NCBI GenBank assembly: GCA_009711805.1
Contig: VEMX01000015.1
Coordinates: 1-56,225 of the forward strand
Reading direction: 5' to 3'
DNA from: Balneolaceae bacterium
GTDB taxonomy: Bacteria > Bacteroidota > Rhodothermia > Balneolales > Balneolaceae
DNA length: 56,225 nt
This document shows, piece by piece, positions 2,733 through 43,510 of this stretch (position 1 is the first letter of the stretch; each line of letters begins with the position of its first letter). The position numbers and the translations under genes were made by a program. The notes beneath the pieces were generated by a model that worked only from the letters and a program-made list of their open reading frames with translations, did not search any database and had not been told where the DNA came from.

Positions 2733-3677
2733 TTATCCTTCTTCCTGTTTGTTTTCCCAGGCACGCTGAACCGTTACACGATCTTCGTCTTCTGGTACAA
2801 AACCTTCAAGGTCTGCAAGATCGGTATCATTAATATGATCGATTGCATCTTTGGCAGTCATGTCGGTTGAAAGCTCGCCGTCAGAATCGGATTCGGATGA
2901 AGATTCATCGTCCTCAGTGTCATCCTCAGCTTCTTCTTCTTTAGATTCTGTTTCAGCTTCAACTTCTTCTGTTTTGTCTTCGTCGGCCTCAGCTCCAACT
3001 TCTTCAACAGCTTCTGCTTCTTTTTTAGCATCGGCTTCTTCAGGCTGTGCTTCTTCCTCTTTCTCAGTTTCTGGCTGAGTTTCGGCTTCAGCTGCAGGTG
3101 TTTCAGTAGCTTCTTCCTGTGTTTCTTCAACAGCGGCATCTTCAGCTTGTGCTGTTTCTTCTACTGCTTCTTCAGCTGTATCTTCTTTAGTCTCTTCTTC
3201 GGCAGCAGCTTCTTCCTGCTCGCGGGCAGCTTTTTCAGCTTCTACTTCAGCAGCAGCTTTAGCGGCGGCTTCCTGAACTTTCTTTTTGTATTCTCTTTCT
3301 TCGGCTGCAAGCGTTTCCTGGTACTGTTCTTTGCGGGAAGGCTTATCGTCTTCTTTCGATTCACGATATTCTCTCCATTCGCTCAGTGCCTTTTCAATTT
3401 CTTCTTCACTCTTTCCCCAGTTGATGAGGTGGCGTTTATAGAGGAGTCCTTCGCGGCGCAAAATTTTGCGAACCGTATCTGAAGGTTGAGCGCCGGTGTC
3501 TAACCAATAAAAAATGCGGTCTTCATTCAGAAGCACCTCTTTTCTCTCGGTTACGTTATCGTAACGTCCTACCTGTTCGATGATGCGGCCATCTCTTGGT
3601 GAGCGGCTGTCGGCAACAACGATGTGCCAGATGGGACGCTTTTTTCGTCCTTTACGTTGAAGTCTGATTCTTAACAA
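2733..3677 (-). CDS. rpsP: 30S ribosomal protein S16 with long acidic C-terminal extension
   Basis: Residues 1 to about 85 are ordinary S16 (MLRIRLQRKGRKKRPIW, then SRSPRDGRIIEQVGRYD and IFYWLDTGAQPSDTV). The family is normally 80-100 residues; this one has 314. Residues about 100-265 are low-complexity and rich in Glu and Ala, probably helical or disordered and strongly acidic. The last 45 residues look folded again (TAKDAIDHINDTDLADLEGF, then DEDRVTVQRAWENK). No frameshift is needed: the frame is open throughout and rimM follows normally. Whether the tail stays on the ribosome or is clipped cannot be seen. Confidence 0.95.
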   Translation of the reverse strand: MLRIRLQRKGRKKRPIWHIVVADSRSPRDGRIIEQVGRYDNVTERKEVLLNEDRIFYWLDTGAQPSDTVRKILRREGLLYKRHLINWGKSEEEIEKALSEWREYRESKEDDKPSRKEQYQETLAAEEREYKKKVQEAAAKAAAEVEAEKAAREQEEAAAEEETKEDTAEEAVEETAQAEDAAVEETQEEATETPAAEAETQPETEKEEEAQPEEADAKKEAEAVEEVGAEADEDKTEEVEAETESKEEEAEDDTEDDESSSESDSDGELSTDMTAKDAIDHINDTDLADLEGFVPEDEDRVTVQRAWENKQEEG

Positions 3678-3732
3678 TGATGTTCTCCAGTGTGTTTTTC
3701 CGAAGGAATCCCTTCGGTTGATTTATAATTTC

Positions 3733-5073
3733 CTATCGGCCTATTGGCAGATTTTTCAATCCTTGAAGAGCACGTCCCATTTTTCCCATTTTGGACATGG
3801 TCTTCATCATTTTTTTCATTTGATTGAACTGTTTTATGAGATCATTAATCTCACGAACAGTGGTGCCAGAACCCTTCGCAATACGTCGTCTCCGACTTCC
3901 ATTGAGAATATCAGGATCCTGACGCTCCTCCGGCGTCATTGATAAGATTATAGCTTCAATCGGTTTGAACGAGTCATCATCGATATCTGTATCATCTAAT
4001 GCTTTGCTGGCGCCGGGGATCATAGATACAAGGTCTGAGAAATCTCCCATCTTCTTGATCTTTTGAATTTGATCGAGGAAGTCGTTCAGATCAAATTTAT
4101 CTGAACGGATTTTCTTTTGAAGCTTTTCGGCTTCTTCCTCATCAAATTCTTTTTGAGCTTTTTCAACAAGCGAAACCACATCACCCATACCCAGAATACG
4201 CTGGGCCATTCGGTCAGGATAGAAGGGTGAGAGGGCTTCCAGCTTTTCGCCGGTACCCACAAACTTGATAGGTTTGTTTACAACCGTTTTAATGGAGAGG
4301 GCGGCACCGCCTCGGGTGTCACCATCCAGCTTGGTTAAAACCACGCCATCAAAGTTGATACGCTCGTTAAATTCTTTGGCTGTGTTAACGGCGTCCTGAC
4401 CGGTCATCGCGTCAACAACAAACAAAGTCTCATGAGGGTTAACCGCTTCCTTAATTTCGGCAACCTCATTCATCATTTTCTCATCTACATGTAAACGACC
4501 CGCGGTATCAATAATAACGGTATCGAGTGCCAAACTTTTAGCCATGGAAACGGCTTCTTTGGCAACACGGACCGCATCTTTCTGTTCGATGGAATACACC
4601 GGAACATCAATTTGGGAAGCGAGTGTCTTAAGCTGGTCTACAGCGGCAGGGCGATAAACATCGGCGGCAGCAAGAAGAGGATTCCTTTTATGCTCCTGCT
4701 TTAAGTGTCGGGCTAACTTTCCGGTAAAGGTCGTTTTACCCGAACCCTGAAGGCCGGCTATAAGAATTACAGTAGGAGGGTTTTGAGCTTTGGCAATATC
4801 GGCGCGTTCGCCACCAAATGTTTCAACCAGCTTGTCGTGCACAATTTTTGTGAACTGCTGGCCGGGATTAACACTGGTGAGGACATCGGAACCGAGAACC
4901 TGCTCTTTAATATCTGCAGTAAACTGGCGGGCTACTTCGTAGTTAACATCGGCATCAAGTAAAGCACGGCGTATTTCACGGACAGTCTCCGCAATATTCA
5001 CTTCCGTGATTCTTGATTCCCCTTTCAGTGATTGAAAGGCTTGGTCTAATTTTGATGATAAATCTTCAAACAT
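3733..5073 (-). CDS. ffh: Signal recognition particle GTPase Ffh
   Basis: Targets nascent membrane proteins to FtsY and the translocon. From the internal ATG (MFEDLSSKLDQAF) it is 446 residues; eight more codons are open upstream. Domains in order: N helical bundle, G domain with GLQGSGKTT, DTAGR, TKLDGDTRGG and GTGEK, then the Met-rich M domain ending in MKKMMKTMSKMGKMGRALQG. It leads the ribosomal block and is separated from rpsP by 55 bases. No 4.5S RNA gene was recognised nearby. Confidence 0.97.
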   Translation of the reverse strand: MFEDLSSKLDQAFQSLKGESRITEVNIAETVREIRRALLDADVNYEVARQFTADIKEQVLGSDVLTSVNPGQQFTKIVHDKLVETFGGERADIAKAQNPPTVILIAGLQGSGKTTFTGKLARHLKQEHKRNPLLAAADVYRPAAVDQLKTLASQIDVPVYSIEQKDAVRVAKEAVSMAKSLALDTVIIDTAGRLHVDEKMMNEVAEIKEAVNPHETLFVVDAMTGQDAVNTAKEFNERINFDGVVLTKLDGDTRGGAALSIKTVVNKPIKFVGTGEKLEALSPFYPDRMAQRILGMGDVVSLVEKAQKEFDEEEAEKLQKKIRSDKFDLNDFLDQIQKIKKMGDFSDLVSMIPGASKALDDTDIDDDSFKPIEAIILSMTPEERQDPDILNGSRRRRIAKGSGTTVREINDLIKQFNQMKKMMKTMSKMGKMGRALQGLKNLPIGR

Positions 5074-36096: not shown

Positions 36097-38793
36097 ATGT
36101 TTAATAAATTTTTAAAAGTATTAGCTCTTCTTTTTATTCCAATTGTAGCTTATGGGCAGCAAGGCAAAAGTATTATTTTAAACGAATTGGTAGACCCGTC
36201 CCCAAATGGCATACAGGCAAATAAAACAACTGCCGGTAATGCACGCAGTTATTATACCTTCAATGAAGAAATAATTCGAAAGGGAGAACTTAAAAAAGGA
36301 GACCGTTTTTACTTTAGAATGGATAACGAAGATATAAAAGAGTTTGAGATATCCAGAAAAAGCCACTTCCTTCCGGGAACTATTTCATATAGTGCCAGGG
36401 AAGCAGGAAGCAAAGAAAACATATTTTTATTTACCTATAAAGAGGGACGGATAAACGGACAATATCATCAGTCTCACAACCAAAGTGTATTCCTCTCTTA
36501 TGACAATGAGCTAAGCCATAACTATGTGACAAAAGAAGCTCCTATTGGAACCGAAGAGTTAAGCTGTAGCGTACATGAGGGGGATTTTAGAACGCCTTCT
36601 TTTACCCCTTCAACCGGAAACCAACTTAGAAAGAATAAACAGGCATCAGCAAACACATTTCGTGGAGCACCGCTCAATGAAGCTGATGATGACAGTGTGA
36701 CCATTGATATTCTAATTGCCTATACCGATTCAGCGGTAACCTGGGCCAACAGCTCAAGTTTTGGAAGTATTGAAGGGGTATTAGCTCAGGCAATGAACTT
36801 TTCCCAAACAGCAATGGATAACAGTGGTCTTAGAATAGAGTTAAGAGTGGCACATTCCTATAAAAATGATTATACCGACGACAATTCGGATACGGAAGCC
36901 GGTACTCATTTACGGAGGTTTACTCAAAACCCAGCTAACCCGATCTTTCAAACAACCACCTATAACGGATATATGGAGGAAGTGCATGAGCTCAGAAATG
37001 AATATGGAGCCGATCTTGTAGCCTTAGTTATGAGCGAGCCCAATACCGGGGGTATTGCCTGGATGCTAACGGATACCGGAGGGGAGCCGGCTTGGGGGTT
37101 TTCGGTAAACAGAGTGCAGCAAATAGCTTTTGGCTATACCCTGGTGCACGAATTAGGTCACAATATGGGGAATGCCCATTCAAAAACACAAACCTCTTCG
37201 GCTTCAGATAACGGTGGGGGGTTGTTTCAGTACTCAGCGGGTTACCAGGACTTTACGGGAGGTTTTCACACCGTGATGGCTTACTCAGATGGTTTAAACC
37301 GTGTTCCACTTTTCTCCAGTCCGGATTTAACATATGAAGGCCGGTCGGCGGGAACGGATGACAACAGGAAAGCGACAGACAATGTGCGGAGCATGAAAAT
37401 CTCAAAACGCACAATTGCATCTTATCGATCTACAATGGTTGATTCTCCTGATCCGGAAGTGTCTACCAATGAGTTGACCGTACAAATGAACAGAGAAGAT
37501 GAAGAAGCGGTCAGTATTGATCTTTCGAATGTGGCAGAAGAAGGCAACAGCCTTATGTGGTATGTGGATTTTAAAGCCGATAATATCTCCAATAAGAATT
37601 CACAGGCAAAAAAAGCAGACCGTAAAGAAATAAAACCCCTTCAGTTAATGGAGGAAGCCCAAAGAGTGGCAAACTATTCAGGAGCCCCTGCGCGAAGCAA
37701 AACGGTGAATAACGAAGAGGTTATATACAGCACCTCATTTGAGAGTGCTGAAGGGTTTTTCACGGGTGGCGACTACGATGGAATGTCGGAATGGAGAATA
37801 CAATCCGGAGCCGGTTTTACAATCTCCAGTCAAAATCCATTATCAGGGAGCCAGCATATGCGGCTGGAATCGGATGGTGGATCCACACAATTTTTAGCTT
37901 CTCCGTTTTTAGGATACCAGTTATTTGGGGAATACGAATTTAGTGTAGATTTTATGGTATCTGATACGTCAGAGGTGTATGACTTCTATATATATGATGG
38001 AAGAAACGGAGAGTTTTCAAGTGGTGTAATAATTAGCCGGGGTGTTATATATGCTACTGATTTAACGGAACTGGATGAAGTGTCTTTCTTTTCTACTTCT
38101 GGCCAGGTGGAGGAAAATGAGAAGGCAACGCTTCGCATTGTGTATAACAACACCAATCAAACCATCGACTATTATCTTGATGGAACACTGTTGACACAAA
38201 ACTCATACTTAAAAGGATCGACCCCGGGACTGGTGAAAATGTTAAACCGGAATCAATCTACCGGTTCTTTATTTGATATAGATAATCTGGAAATAAAGAA
38301 AAATGCAGCTCCTTATAAGTGGCTCAATGTAGAAACTCAGAGTGGAACGGTATTCGAAGGAGATAGTGACACCATAGACCTGGTGTTTAATACTGAAGGC
38401 ATTTCTGCGGGAACTTATGAGACAACTATGGTAATAACTACCAACTCTCCCACTGAACCAGAGATTGAAGTGCCAATAACATTCACAGTAAATGAAACGG
38501 TTTCCAATGAAGAGTCGCCAGGGGTTCCCAGTCGTATTAGCCTGGAACAAAATTATCCAAACCCCTTTAATCCAACTACTACGATCAGCTATTCGTTAGC
38601 GCAGGCAGAAAAAGTAGAAATTGATGTTTTCAATATTCAGGGACAAAAAATTTCTACTTTGTATAATGGTTTGCAGCAGGCTGGTGAGCACAAGATCACA
38701 TTTGATGCTTCAGCCCTTTCAAGCGGAGTGTATCTCTATCGTCTCCGTTCCGGTTCTCAGGTTATCACAAAACAAATGGTCTTAATTAAATAA
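36097..38793 (+). CDS. Secreted reprolysin-like metzincin protease with C-terminal sorting domain
   Basis: 898 residues: signal peptide (about 1-20), a propeptide region about 60-150 (LKKGDRFYFRMDNED, FLPGTISYSAREAG), the catalytic domain with zinc motif HELGHNMGNAH at 351-361 and Met-turn VMAYS near 394, a lectin-like beta-sandwich region about 545-740, and the sorting domain NYPNPFNPTTTISYSLAQAE from about 816 to a C-terminus of VLIK. It is exported, probably through the type IX system. A lipoprotein gene begins two bases after the stop and resembles the propeptide. Confidence 0.92.
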   Translation: MFNKFLKVLALLFIPIVAYGQQGKSIILNELVDPSPNGIQANKTTAGNARSYYTFNEEIIRKGELKKGDRFYFRMDNEDIKEFEISRKSHFLPGTISYSAREAGSKENIFLFTYKEGRINGQYHQSHNQSVFLSYDNELSHNYVTKEAPIGTEELSCSVHEGDFRTPSFTPSTGNQLRKNKQASANTFRGAPLNEADDDSVTIDILIAYTDSAVTWANSSSFGSIEGVLAQAMNFSQTAMDNSGLRIELRVAHSYKNDYTDDNSDTEAGTHLRRFTQNPANPIFQTTTYNGYMEEVHELRNEYGADLVALVMSEPNTGGIAWMLTDTGGEPAWGFSVNRVQQIAFGYTLVHELGHNMGNAHSKTQTSSASDNGGGLFQYSAGYQDFTGGFHTVMAYSDGLNRVPLFSSPDLTYEGRSAGTDDNRKATDNVRSMKISKRTIASYRSTMVDSPDPEVSTNELTVQMNREDEEAVSIDLSNVAEEGNSLMWYVDFKADNISNKNSQAKKADRKEIKPLQLMEEAQRVANYSGAPARSKTVNNEEVIYSTSFESAEGFFTGGDYDGMSEWRIQSGAGFTISSQNPLSGSQHMRLESDGGSTQFLASPFLGYQLFGEYEFSVDFMVSDTSEVYDFYIYDGRNGEFSSGVIISRGVIYATDLTELDEVSFFSTSGQVEENEKATLRIVYNNTNQTIDYYLDGTLLTQNSYLKGSTPGLVKMLNRNQSTGSLFDIDNLEIKKNAAPYKWLNVETQSGTVFEGDSDTIDLVFNTEGISAGTYETTMVITTNSPTEPEIEVPITFTVNETVSNEESPGVPSRISLEQNYPNPFNPTTTISYSLAQAEKVEIDVFNIQGQKISTLYNGLQQAGEHKITFDASALSSGVYLYRLRSGSQVITKQMVLIK

Positions 38794-38795
38794 TT

Positions 38796-39245
38796 ATGCG
38801 TATTTGTACTTCACTATTTATATTGATGATTTTTTTGGTAAGCGGTATGTGGGCTTGTTCTTCTGAGAAAAAAGAGAAGGAAAAAGCTGCTCCGAAAATA
38901 TATGTAGACTTATCCTTCGAGGAGGTGTCTGCTTTAAGTCAGGGAGATGAATTCAACTTGTCCCTGGGCGATTCCGGAGTAGTACACCTTAAAGTTCGTA
39001 CCGTACGAAGCCAGATTCCGGGAACAACTTCGATAGCAGCTGATGTGGAAGACAAGGAAACGGGCCTGGCTTCTTTAATTCTTCGAGATAATAAAATTTC
39101 AGGTACAGTGAATATCTACAGCAAAGATTATATGTACTACATAAAACATGACGGGGATGAAAAAGGGTACTACCTGGAAGAAGTAAAAAAAGAAGATCAA
39201 GATATTCTGGAAGGCTCCAAGCCGCTGAACACAAATCAGCAATAG
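38796..39245 (+). CDS. Lipoprotein resembling the neighbouring protease propeptide
   Basis: 149 residues with a lipoprotein signal (lipid-bearing Cys21 in SGMWACSSEKKE). Residues about 45-130 align by eye with the protease propeptide: GDEF against GDRF, IPGTTS against LPGTIS, KETG and ENIF-type spacing, NKISG against GRING, then Tyr-rich sequence. Two bases separate it from the protease gene, so they are co-transcribed. It could act as an inhibitor, chaperone or tether of the protease. No family name is claimed. Confidence 0.72.
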   Translation: MRICTSLFILMIFLVSGMWACSSEKKEKEKAAPKIYVDLSFEEVSALSQGDEFNLSLGDSGVVHLKVRTVRSQIPGTTSIAADVEDKETGLASLILRDNKISGTVNIYSKDYMYYIKHDGDEKGYYLEEVKKEDQDILEGSKPLNTNQQ

Positions 39246-39347: not shown

Positions 39348-42300
39348 ATGCAAACAGTTAGAGGGTTTATAATATCGCTTATTCTGGTTTTATCAGCAGG
39401 GCAGGGATATGCACAGCCCCACTCATTTACTTTCACAGAGTACACTGTACATAACACCGAACTATCTCACAACACCGTAACCAGTCTGTTCATGGATAGC
39501 AGAGGCTTTCTTTGGGTGGGTACCATCAATGGGTTAAACCGCTTCGATGGCAAACACATAAAGGTGTACCGACATAATTCTACCGATTCTACCTCCTTAT
39601 CCAACGATTTCATACATGGAATCTCAGAAGATAAAGAAGGTTTTTTGTGGATCACTACCCGGGATGGAGGAATAAACCGTTTTGATCCTGTCTCGGAAAC
39701 GTTTGTGCACTTCAAGTATTCAGAAACGGCAGATAATGGCATCCCAAACAGCCCGGTATACCTGAGCCATACTGATCAGCAAAATACTTTTTGGGTGTCT
39801 TTTGGAAGAGAGACACTGGGTATTTTGAACAAAGAAACCGGAAAGTTCAAGAAAGGTGAGATTCTAAATAAGAAAAGTGGAGAGCGGTTGGCCTCTCCCA
39901 ATGCAGTAACAGAATTCAATAACGGAGGATGGCTTGCAGTTTCCTTCGATGGCTTGTATTTCCTTCCCGATTCTACATTACAGGCATTTATAAAGACACC
40001 ATCAAGAGAAAAATTATATGCCAGGCAGCTTAACCATCCTGCAATTCAGAAGAGCAAAAACCTGGTACAGATATATACCATAAAAGACAAAGGGAGTTGG
40101 ATAAGAGGGGGAGGCTCCCCGGTTGTCGGCATTAGTGAAGAAGATTATCCGGATTACTTAAGAGATGTGGCAGATGAGGGTGTTTATAAAAACAGCGCCG
40201 AAGACTGGTTTGCACAAAGGGAACAGTATTTATATACGGGTGCCGGGGAACCGGGAATAGCCGTAATAAACACAGAAACGAACAAGATCAGTTACCATAA
40301 ACCCGTAGATGAAACCTCAGAAATAGGAGTTAATACGCTTTATGAAGATAAGCATGGAGGCCTTTGGGGATTTTCATGGGGAAATGGATTCGCCCGGCTA
40401 AAAGAACAGAAGCTATTTCGCTTAATCAATGCTATGAACTATCCACAACTGCCAACAGAGTTTATGCTGGCTTTTGAAGAAGAACCAGGCAAAGGCGTAT
40501 GGCTGGGTACAGCAGCAGGCGTTGGGTTTTGGGATATAAGCAGAAATCGGCTAACCAACGTTAATCGTTATTTACCAGGTGAAGAGCTTACTTCTGTATG
40601 GTCGATGGACCGAGATGAAAATGGATTATGGATTGTTACCCTAAACCGTGGACTTTGGTATCTGCCCATTGTAGACGGGAAGCCTCAGTTTGACAATCTG
40701 CAAACATTTAAACCAGCTAACAGCTTTGTGAAATCCTATAACTTACACCAGGTAAAAAGAGATAGCAGAGGCTGGCTATGGGTTGGGTATGAAGGTGAGG
40801 GTATACAACTGATAAAAGACCCCGACAGGCTTTTAAATGGGAATCCGGTGCATGCCATAGAATTTAATAATCCCGAAACAAGTCAGCATATAAAAGGAAA
40901 TCAGATAAGAGAAATATACGAAGATAAAGAGGGCAATATATGGCTGGCTATGATGCAAAGCGGGTTCAACAAAATCACAATAGGTAAAAATGAGATTGTG
41001 GAAATAACCAATTTAAGTCACAATGCAGGCAACACAAATTCGATCTCCTTCAATGATGGAAGGAGCATTTTTCAACAAAATGATTCTACTTATTGGTTTG
41101 CAACCTACGGAGGGGGCATAAACCGGTGGAATAAGTATACCGGAAAGATTCTTCAGTTGGATGAAAAGGATGGCCTGGCCAATAATAGCACCTATGGTAT
41201 TCTTCCGGATGCCAACCCAGATTACATCTGGATTAGCACCAATAACGGCTTGAGCCGCTTAAATACAAGAACTCTACGGTTCACTAATTATACCGAGAAT
41301 GACGGTTTGCAGAACCGGGAATTTAATACCGGCGCTTTTTATAAAATGAGTGACGGTAAGTTGATATATGGAGGTATTGGAGGGCTTAATGTAGTGTACA
41401 CTGAGAAACTGGAGCCGTCCGATACCGCCTCTCCGGTGTACATTACCCAGGTAAACTTGTTTAACGAGCCGCTGCCATCCGACACCAGTCATCTGTTTCT
41501 CGATAAGCTGACATTGCCATATAACAAGAATTTCCTCTCTTTCGAATATGTGTCGCTGGAATACGACAACCCCTCGGAAGTAGAATATGCCTACAAGATG
41601 GATCAGGTTGACGAAGCCTGGGTGACTGCCGGAAACCGAACCTATGCTGGTTACCCCGGCCTGGAACCAGGCGAGTATATCTTCCGGGTAAAATCAGCAG
41701 ATGGCGATGGCGTGTGGAATGAAAAAGCCAGCACTATCCAGGTGGTTATCACCCCACCTTGGTGGCAAACCATATGGTTTAGGTTAACAATGGGCGTTTT
41801 GCTTGTAGTGAGTTTTGCTTCCGGTATCCGATATTTATCGCAGCGCCGGCTTCGGAAACAAATACGGCAGATGGAGATGGAGAATAAGTTGCGGAATGAA
41901 AGGGAACGTATTTCCCGGGATCTGCACGACCATGTAGGGGCACAACTGGCTAATATTATATCCGGGCTTTCTCTGGCGGATAAATACAACCAGGTAGAAG
42001 AAAAAGGGAAAAGCTCAAAGTTAATGAACTCTCTAAAAAGTGATGCCCAGGTGACTATCAAACAGCTGAGGGAAACCATTTGGGCACTCAACCAGAACAA
42101 GATTAGCCTGGAAGGGTTCATTCAGCACCTGAAAACGTATTTCGGCAACCAAAGTACACTGCATGAAAGCCTGAATATAAATTACGAACTACAGGCCGAT
42201 GAGGATATAGAGCTTTCTGCCACTCAGGCCCTCAATATTTTTCGGGTTATCCAGGAGGCATCACAAAACACACTGAAATATGCGGATGCTGAAAACCTAA

Positions 42301-42494
42301 AGATTTCTCTAATTAAGGAAAACGGGCAGCTGAATGTAGCCATTAAAGATGACGGCACCTTTAAAGAAAAGAACAACCAACAAAATGGAGGTTACGGCTT
42401 AGGAAATATGAAGAAAAGAGCGGAAGAATTGGACGGCACTTTAGATATAGCAACAGGTAATGGAACAAAAATAACACTGACAATAAAAGTATAA
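39348..42494 (+). CDS. Two-component propeller sensor histidine kinase (HisKA_3 type)
   Basis: 1048 residues. After a signal peptide come about 14 two-component propeller repeats (pattern SRGFLWVGTINGLNRFDG, EDKEGNIWLAM), a Y_Y_Y domain (about 720-800: FEYVSLEYDNPSEVEYAYKM), one membrane helix near residue 810, a HisKA_3 domain with H-box ERISRDLHDHVGAQL (near 855), and an HATPase domain (RVIQEASQNTLKYA, DDGTF, GGYGLGNMKKRAEELDG). No receiver domain is fused. The partner is presumably the NarL-type regulator 330 bases downstream. The sensor faces the periplasm, and its ligand is not predictable. Confidence 0.93.
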   Translation: MQTVRGFIISLILVLSAGQGYAQPHSFTFTEYTVHNTELSHNTVTSLFMDSRGFLWVGTINGLNRFDGKHIKVYRHNSTDSTSLSNDFIHGISEDKEGFLWITTRDGGINRFDPVSETFVHFKYSETADNGIPNSPVYLSHTDQQNTFWVSFGRETLGILNKETGKFKKGEILNKKSGERLASPNAVTEFNNGGWLAVSFDGLYFLPDSTLQAFIKTPSREKLYARQLNHPAIQKSKNLVQIYTIKDKGSWIRGGGSPVVGISEEDYPDYLRDVADEGVYKNSAEDWFAQREQYLYTGAGEPGIAVINTETNKISYHKPVDETSEIGVNTLYEDKHGGLWGFSWGNGFARLKEQKLFRLINAMNYPQLPTEFMLAFEEEPGKGVWLGTAAGVGFWDISRNRLTNVNRYLPGEELTSVWSMDRDENGLWIVTLNRGLWYLPIVDGKPQFDNLQTFKPANSFVKSYNLHQVKRDSRGWLWVGYEGEGIQLIKDPDRLLNGNPVHAIEFNNPETSQHIKGNQIREIYEDKEGNIWLAMMQSGFNKITIGKNEIVEITNLSHNAGNTNSISFNDGRSIFQQNDSTYWFATYGGGINRWNKYTGKILQLDEKDGLANNSTYGILPDANPDYIWISTNNGLSRLNTRTLRFTNYTENDGLQNREFNTGAFYKMSDGKLIYGGIGGLNVVYTEKLEPSDTASPVYITQVNLFNEPLPSDTSHLFLDKLTLPYNKNFLSFEYVSLEYDNPSEVEYAYKMDQVDEAWVTAGNRTYAGYPGLEPGEYIFRVKSADGDGVWNEKASTIQVVITPPWWQTIWFRLTMGVLLVVSFASGIRYLSQRRLRKQIRQMEMENKLRNERERISRDLHDHVGAQLANIISGLSLADKYNQVEEKGKSSKLMNSLKSDAQVTIKQLRETIWALNQNKISLEGFIQHLKTYFGNQSTLHESLNINYELQADEDIELSATQALNIFRVIQEASQNTLKYADAENLKISLIKENGQLNVAIKDDGTFKEKNNQQNGGYGLGNMKKRAEELDGTLDIATGNGTKITLTIKV

Positions 42495-42823
42495 GAAAGC
42501 TATGCAAAGTCGGTCTTTTGCCCTATGTATGTGTTACCCGCCGGTTGAAATCCTCGAATATAGGGTATATGCTGCGGCTTCAGCCTCTTTCAGGTCTTGA
42601 TATTTAAATCCCTGGTTTTTCAAAGCCCTCTATAAATACCAATTTCGGAGTATTGGTTAAGAAGTAAATTCAGATCATTTTATAGAAACGATAACACTGG
42701 CTGCCAGTGAAAAGGGCGAAGACACAACTTTTAGAGACCAGGAATGAGCGGTTAGCTAATGAAAGCAGAAAATGAGTGGGTACATTTGTTAGTGTTAGGG
42801 AGTCTTTATAAAAAAGGAGTATT
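42495..42823. other. Intergenic region between the sensor kinase and its regulator
   Basis: About 330 bases with no gene, no strong hairpin and no repeat found; it may hold the regulator's promoter. Confidence 0.5.
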
Positions 42824-43510
42824 ATGAGTGGAAAAACAGTTACTGAAAAAATACATGTAGCAATTGTCGAGGATCACGGAATCTTCAGGAAAAGGATATC
42901 GGAGTTGCTTTCTTTTTATGAGGAAATTGAATTGGGTTTTGCTGTAGAGAGTGCCGAATTATGCCTGAAGTACCTTAAGAAGACAGAACGTCTTCCGGAT
43001 GTGATACTTATGGATATTGAGCTTCCTGGTTTATCCGGGATAGAAGCTGCATTCAAAATAAAAGAACACTATGAGGGAATAGATATCATCATGTTTACAG
43101 TGTTTGAGGATGATGACCGTATTTTTGAATCTATTAAAGTAGGAGCCTCGGGATATCTGCTTAAAGATGAACCGATTGACCAGGTGGTTACATCCATCCT
43201 TGAGACGCAGAGAGGTGGTTCTCCTATTTCACCGTCTATTGCACGTAAAGTAATGAGTATGGTGCAGGACATGGATCGTAAAAACAAAAAACCGGCTACA
43301 GAAAAAGAAGTGCGACCCTTTAACCTAAGTCCGGCAGAACTTCGGATTCTGGATCATGTAATTGAAGGAAAAACCAATAAAGAGATTGCCGGTGATATTC
43401 ATTTGAGTCCCTGGACGGTTAAAACCCACATTCGAAATATTTATAAAAAAATGCAGGTTAGTTCACGGGCAGCCGCCGTCCGAAAGGCATTAAAAAGAGA
43501 TATAGGCTAA
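42824..43510 (+). CDS. NarL/FixJ-family response regulator
   Basis: 228 residues: receiver domain with VAIVEDHGIFRKRI, phosphoacceptor Asp64 in ILMDIELPGLSG, Thr in IMFTVFEDD and Lys in GYLLKDEP, then a LuxR-type HTH (LSPAELRILDHVIEGKTNKE, HLSPWTVKTHIRNIYKKMQV). It lies behind the giant propeller kinase and before two sorted surface-protein genes, which it may regulate. This is inference from context. Confidence 0.94.
   Translation: MSGKTVTEKIHVAIVEDHGIFRKRISELLSFYEEIELGFAVESAELCLKYLKKTERLPDVILMDIELPGLSGIEAAFKIKEHYEGIDIIMFTVFEDDDRIFESIKVGASGYLLKDEPIDQVVTSILETQRGGSPISPSIARKVMSMVQDMDRKNKKPATEKEVRPFNLSPAELRILDHVIEGKTNKEIAGDIHLSPWTVKTHIRNIYKKMQVSSRAAAVRKALKRDIG

Follow-up and report, generated by a model that had tools for sequence, protein, structure and literature searches.

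The window analysed here is a stretch of 56,225 nucleotides from Balneolaceae bacterium (assembly GCA_009711805.1, contig VEMX01000015.1, positions 1-56,225), and the feature of interest comprises two adjacent genes at positions 36097-39245; both genes, and all the features described within them, lie on the forward strand. The first gene (36097..38793) encodes a secreted metzincin protease of 898 amino acids, which its Pfam and NCBIfam domains identify as M12B/Mep72-like and as cargo of the T9SS. The protein consists of a signal peptide, a propeptide extending to approximately residue 201, a metzincin domain and a T9SS type A tail (residues 820-895). No Pfam model matches the N-terminal propeptide (residues 21-201; 36157..36699) in a Pfam search, and it is recognised instead through the HMM and hhalign homology to the product of the second gene that is described below. 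The catalytic domain (36700..37434) shares 52-60% identity with its closest relatives, matches Pfam Reprolysin_5 across residues 202-403 (E 3.7e-13) and contains the zinc-binding motif HELGHNMGNAH (37147..37179, from the sequence); the nearest NCBIfam model is Mep72 (E 7.5e-30, residues 202-493), with a score far below the cut-off of that model. The C-terminal sorting domain (Por_Secre_tail; 38554..38781) matches TIGR04183 with E 7.1e-13, and a gene for the SprA translocon is found in the same genome. Relatives of this protease occur in 69 of 128 Balneolales genomes.

The second gene (38796..39245) encodes a lipoprotein of 149 amino acids and starts 2 bp beyond the protease stop codon, an interval that the first-pass annotation of this DNA had given correctly. 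Cys21 of its lipobox (38856..38858) is the predicted site of the lipid anchor, and an N-terminal lipobox is present in nearly all Balneolales homologues. Behind the anchor, AlphaFold predicts an eight-stranded beta domain (38895..39188; pLDDT 89.4, pTM 0.76), followed by the C-terminal tail motif DILEGSKPL (39201..39227), which is an instance of a conserved pattern, D-x-L-x-G-x-x-P-L (D in 23, G in 23 and P in 22 of 27 aligned lipoproteins). Pfam and NCBIfam searches with the lipoprotein yield chance-level matches only. Just after the lipoprotein, at 39348-43510, the window contains a sensor kinase with Reg_prop repeats (Y_Y_Y, HisKA_3) and then a response regulator; the start of a similar kinase also follows at three other loci (L010, L011 and L014), and so the kinase may be tied to regulation. 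A second metzincin in this genome (L152, contig C34 of G000), of 666 amino acids and with a T9SS-like tail, has an unrelated lipoprotein-like open reading frame of 228 amino acids directly behind it.

The lipoprotein is a true homologue of the protease propeptide, and the resemblance is far beyond chance. Pairwise BLASTP aligns the two over 57 residues without gaps (E 0.001), with 19% identity over that stretch, and pairs GDRFYF with GDEFNL, PGTISYSA with PGTTSIAA and RINGQY with KISGTV, which vindicates the alignment that the first-pass annotation had made by eye. With the lipoprotein as query, a search of 128 Balneolales genomes returns N-terminal parts of metzincins as well as small lipoproteins, giving homologous places in 30 of the 128, although some of these matches are propeptides. 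An HMM trained solely on free copies, 34 in number, picked out over 60 metzincin propeptides from 927 open reading frames, among them that of the window (E 2.5e-12), and scarcely anything besides. A profile-profile comparison, one of the checks proposed at the outset, agrees with these searches: hhalign aligned 27 lipoproteins with 45 propeptides at 99.6% probability (E 1.8e-23, score 148.6), where the maximum score among 60 column-shuffled controls was 14. Sequence searches of the PDB with lipoproteins or propeptides gave no convincing direct match.

The lipoprotein had originally been described as looking like a free copy of the propeptide of its neighbour, and this is right as far as homology is concerned but not if a recent copy is meant, given the 19% identity over the BLASTP stretch. 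The Balneolales lipoproteins form one clade in the tree, which is kept across several families. Because this clade stands apart from the propeptides, a recent duplication of the window protease's own propeptide is not favoured; an older duplication within Balneolales, with lipoproteins and propeptides together forming one clade, is not rejected (AU p 0.665).

Structural models agree with the homology. In AlphaFold models the lipoprotein and propeptide domains (the latter with pLDDT 78.9) have the same order and spacing of strands and helices; the alignment behind the lipoprotein model also contained propeptides, and that behind the propeptide model contained zero lipoproteins. For both models the best match in the PDB is CpaB (6O38), with a VIA-align Z of 12.9 for the lipoprotein (106 residues, rmsd 5.2) and 12.2 for the propeptide, so that the structural similarity expected of the two domains is borne out by strand order and by best match alike. 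The ADAM17 prodomain comes next (Z 7.9 for the lipoprotein model, 7.4-8.3 for the propeptide model) and the profragilysin prodomain after it (Z about 6; 5.5-6.1 with the window propeptide), while no potempin is recognised among the structure matches listed. Foldseek returned nothing at E 0.001 or better with the lipoprotein model and CpaB at E 2.6e-4 with the propeptide model; our claim about the fold is based on the VIA-align Z, where CpaB is well above the remaining rows, and on the propeptide model. The prodomains of ADAM17 and profragilysin have a similar fold, but they belong to the same chain as the protease and give no separate tethered product. One study examined recombinant TACE prodomain as an inhibitor in trans (PMC2802003).

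The two domains are set apart by a cysteine. Balneolales propeptides carry a Cys before the catalytic domain, often within D-x-L-x-C-G, in all 45 aligned sequences and in 73 of the 76 propeptide-bearing metzincins; in the window this is Cys157 (36565..36567), which by the cysteine-switch principle would be a ligand of the zinc. None of 31 lipoproteins has a switch-like Cys, the position being occupied by Gly in 23 of 27 aligned sequences, and hhalign pairs LEGS of the lipoprotein tail with LSCS; the apparent exceptions (L070 and L106) have over-extended reading-frame starts that place the lipobox Cys past residue 41. Without this conserved residue the lipoprotein is not just a second copy of a lock of the cysteine-switch type. 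Cys loss as proof of lost inhibition was considered and dropped, since propeptides of other phyla are often Cys-less and carry a similar, GPPL-like tail, and the missing residue therefore need not signify that inhibition has been lost. Being near-invariant in Balneolales and not in all phyla, the Cys is not strictly a defining feature of the prodomain superfamily.

The survey of gene pairs, another of the checks first proposed, found the lipoprotein paired with the protease in many Balneolales genomes. Among 76 Balneolales metzincins with a propeptide of their own, a free copy is recognised next to approximately 27, on the downstream side in 23 cases and often 1-2 bp away, in an operon-like pairing; the other 49, some of which lie at contig ends, have no recognised adjacent free copy, and so the lipoprotein is not obligatory. 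The reverse situation also exists. Two orphan lipoproteins (L149 and L150) occupy the same locus, with no protease, behind a gene for chorismate mutase/prephenate dehydrogenase, and in G029 the lipoprotein is kept beside a protease remnant that has no catalytic domain. A search for metzincins of this family recovered none in G070, which has an intact lipoprotein, or in G029 (94% and 96% complete, respectively), and only a trace of one in G074 (71% complete). Between two orphan lipoproteins dN is 0.42 and dS about 2.1 (near saturation), indicating purifying selection, although the orphan cases are few and all come from draft genomes.

Other arrangements were seen within the phylum. At L135 and L140 the protease lacks a propeptide, and immediately upstream of it is encoded a secreted propeptide that is not a lipoprotein and in which the Cys is kept; these are true splits, in which the propeptide has been lost from the protease. 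Another split candidate (L143 in G030, 2991-4865) was rejected, as prodomain and catalytic domain share one frame there, apparently with an in-frame stop between them. In the phylum sample, free lipoproteins are confined to Balneolales, and a single secreted, Cys-bearing copy occurs elsewhere: this free propeptide (L168/L183 in G131, from another family of the phylum) keeps its Cys in the sequence DSLQCAPPL and lies near a contig end, and its genome yielded no related metzincin. Separately, a different lipoprotein of 230-250 amino acids is found upstream of another metzincin subfamily at four or more loci (at least L143, L145, L146 and L147), two of these proteins containing a 'LEVGNYWVYEQWYLDP'-like stretch, and this may constitute a second protease-lipoprotein pairing.

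Freed prodomains are not peculiar to Balneolales; similar ones occur in several bacterial phyla. When GTDB genomes were scanned by catalytic domain, 81 metzincins spanning many phyla were examined and 76 of them had the propeptide domain, a count obtained with a model partly trained on those metzincins. At 14 loci (12 Nitrospira, one Nitrospiraceae and one Nitrosospira) a secreted free copy that is not a lipoprotein lies directly downstream of a metzincin, and all 14 are matched by an HMM of the Balneolales free copies alone (E approximately 1e-5 to 2e-8). The Nitrospira free copy stops just short of the DHHP stretch that its cognate propeptide contains. In the tree, Nitrospira free copies group with Nitrospira propeptides and not with Balneolales lipoproteins, and a single origin of both kinds of free copy was rejected (AU p 0.009, for a group named after the first tree had been seen). 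The soluble free prodomain of Nitrospira arose independently of the Balneolales lipoproteins.

The first-pass annotation knew of no description of such an arrangement, but precedents do exist, in the CpaA-CpaB and Mep72-BamI pairs. Full-length Mep72 genes of Pseudomonadales (those above the NCBIfam cut-off) encode no propeptide; their upstream neighbour is identified as BamI by NCBIfam NF052435. Of 17 aligned proteins from this upstream position, 16 match the BamI model and 13 also match the CpaB model. By hhalign, a BamI profile matches the Balneolales lipoproteins (E 4.5e-9), the Balneolales propeptides (E 2.6e-6) and the multi-phylum propeptides (E 4.2e-9), and it finds chain G of PDB 6O38, which is CpaB, with E 2.8e-5; searched directly, the 27 lipoproteins have zero matches at E 0.1 to either the CpaB model (NF033512) or the BamI model. 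BamI, CpaB, the Balneolales lipoproteins and the propeptides belong to the same prodomain superfamily, and CpaB and BamI supply an experimental precedent for a metzincin with a tethered prodomain at its side. Mep72 is toxic in E. coli, and BamI, which binds it, relieves this toxicity (PMC4334185). The tail of CpaB blocks the active site of CpaA in a zymogen-like manner (PMC7542363), and CpaB is membrane-anchored and required for the stability of CpaA and its secretion by the T2SS (PMC7542363, PMC4713064). In the literature searched, to which the CpaAB structure paper did not belong, no statement unites CpaB, BamI and the bacterial metzincin propeptides.

Both precedents depart from the Balneolales pair in some respects. 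CpaB of Acinetobacter is likewise a single small, membrane-tethered domain of the same fold, and its gene closely follows that of an M72 metzincin (at 22 bp, PMC4713064, as against 2 bp for the lipoprotein), but it is held by a transmembrane helix and its client uses the T2SS, whereas the window lipoprotein has a lipid anchor and a T9SS-type client. BamI of Pseudomonas resembles the lipoprotein in adjoining a Mep72-type metzincin, in its N-terminal hydrophobic, anchor-like segment and in its Cys-less tail; it differs in that its gene lies upstream and its client lacks a propeptide, whereas the window protease has one of some 180 amino acids. We know of no link between metzincin prodomains and the inhibitors Spi, Bfi and Bti. 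These are small, co-transcribed inhibitors, some of them lipoproteins, encoded beside SpeB (Spi) and beside Bacteroides C10 proteases (Bfi and Bti), but their targets are cysteine proteases and Bfi and Bti are described as staphostatin-like (PMC3462683).

In proposing a function, we consider it very probable that the lipoprotein is a tethered inhibitor or chaperone. Our own preference leans towards a membrane-tethered prodomain that acts in trans and caps the mature protease, for self-protection and perhaps also for folding or export. By analogy with CpaB, the eight-stranded domain would dock on the neighbouring catalytic domain at the prodomain site, and the C-terminal tail would lie in the active-site cleft as the CpaB tail does in CpaA. 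The propeptide in cis, with its cysteine-switch-like Cys, would serve the folding and latency of the protease; as the enzyme is thus already provided for, the most likely target of the lipoprotein is enzyme that has been freed of its propeptide. It would in this way shield the periplasm or the cell surface, and it may also assist export. Against such a role speak the missing Cys, the 49 relatives next to which a free copy is not recognised, and the fact that the client, in contrast to Mep72, has a propeptide itself. The first-pass annotation had envisaged a tethered, propeptide-like partner that holds the enzyme inactive, aids its folding before export or protects the cell. This reading is supported in part, by the pairing of the genes and by CpaB, a tethered metzincin-binding partner, being the closest solved structure; help with export and nothing else does not explain a lipoprotein that is sometimes kept after the protease has been lost.

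A possible, if less probable, alternative that overlaps with this capping role is that the lipoprotein is a surface immunity protein, an exposed inhibitor that would protect the cell from protease released by itself and by its siblings. The orphan lipoproteins that persist at the same locus without a protease, with low dN/dS between two of them, would be expected of such a protein, subject to the small number of these cases and their draft genomes. Potempins of Tannerella forsythia, whose genes immediately precede those of KLIKK proteases and which are reported as inhibitors of these enzymes (PMC7296668), offer a parallel: they too are small lipoproteins beside a secreted T9SS-type protease, although with the reverse gene order, and they may be regarded as functional analogues. 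Somewhat less probable again, though it too may overlap with capping, is that the lipoprotein is a dedicated secretion chaperone in the strict CpaB role, which would fold or hold the protease in the periplasm and hand it over to the T9SS with any inhibition incidental. The anchoring of CpaB, the need of CpaA for it and the common fold are in keeping with this, as are the T9SS tail of the protease and the SprA gene; however, folding is usually aided by a propeptide, which this protease possesses, a free copy is not recognised beside 49 of its relatives, and lipoproteins persist without any protease to export.

The absence of the Cys from every Balneolales lipoprotein, and the ending of the Nitrospira free copies ahead of the DHHP stretch, could also be read as signs of an activator or competitor that takes the place of the propeptide after cleavage, or drives it off, and so helps to free active enzyme. 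This is improbable, as propeptides of other phyla are also Cys-less with a similar GPPL tail and CpaB blocks the active site rather than opening it. That the lipoprotein is a functionless leftover of a duplicated propeptide, as its low identity to the propeptide might suggest, is scarcely credible for a single clade spanning several families with an intact lipobox, a conserved tail motif, low dN/dS between orphans and an independent counterpart in Nitrospira.

We would give an even chance to a broader proposal: that metzincin prodomains have repeatedly been freed in bacteria, as CpaB and BamI and, independently, as the soluble form in Nitrospira, and that Balneolales operate a two-prodomain system, in which one prodomain in cis bears a cysteine-switch-like lock and a second, lipid-tethered and Cys-less, acts in trans to restrain the mature T9SS-exported enzyme and can persist as an immunity factor once the protease gene has been lost. 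The finding joins families that have been annotated separately, namely the Balneolales lipoproteins, CpaB, BamI and a bacterial metzincin propeptide that has neither a name nor a Pfam model, and it groups them with the prodomain fold of ADAM17 and fragilysin. A rule that can be tested follows from it: a small gene standing alone next to a metzincin may encode a freed prodomain. Nature also offers here a comparison of prodomains that carry the switch Cys with others that lack it. The finding further yields a prediction of how bacteria with a T9SS may guard against their own secreted metalloproteases.
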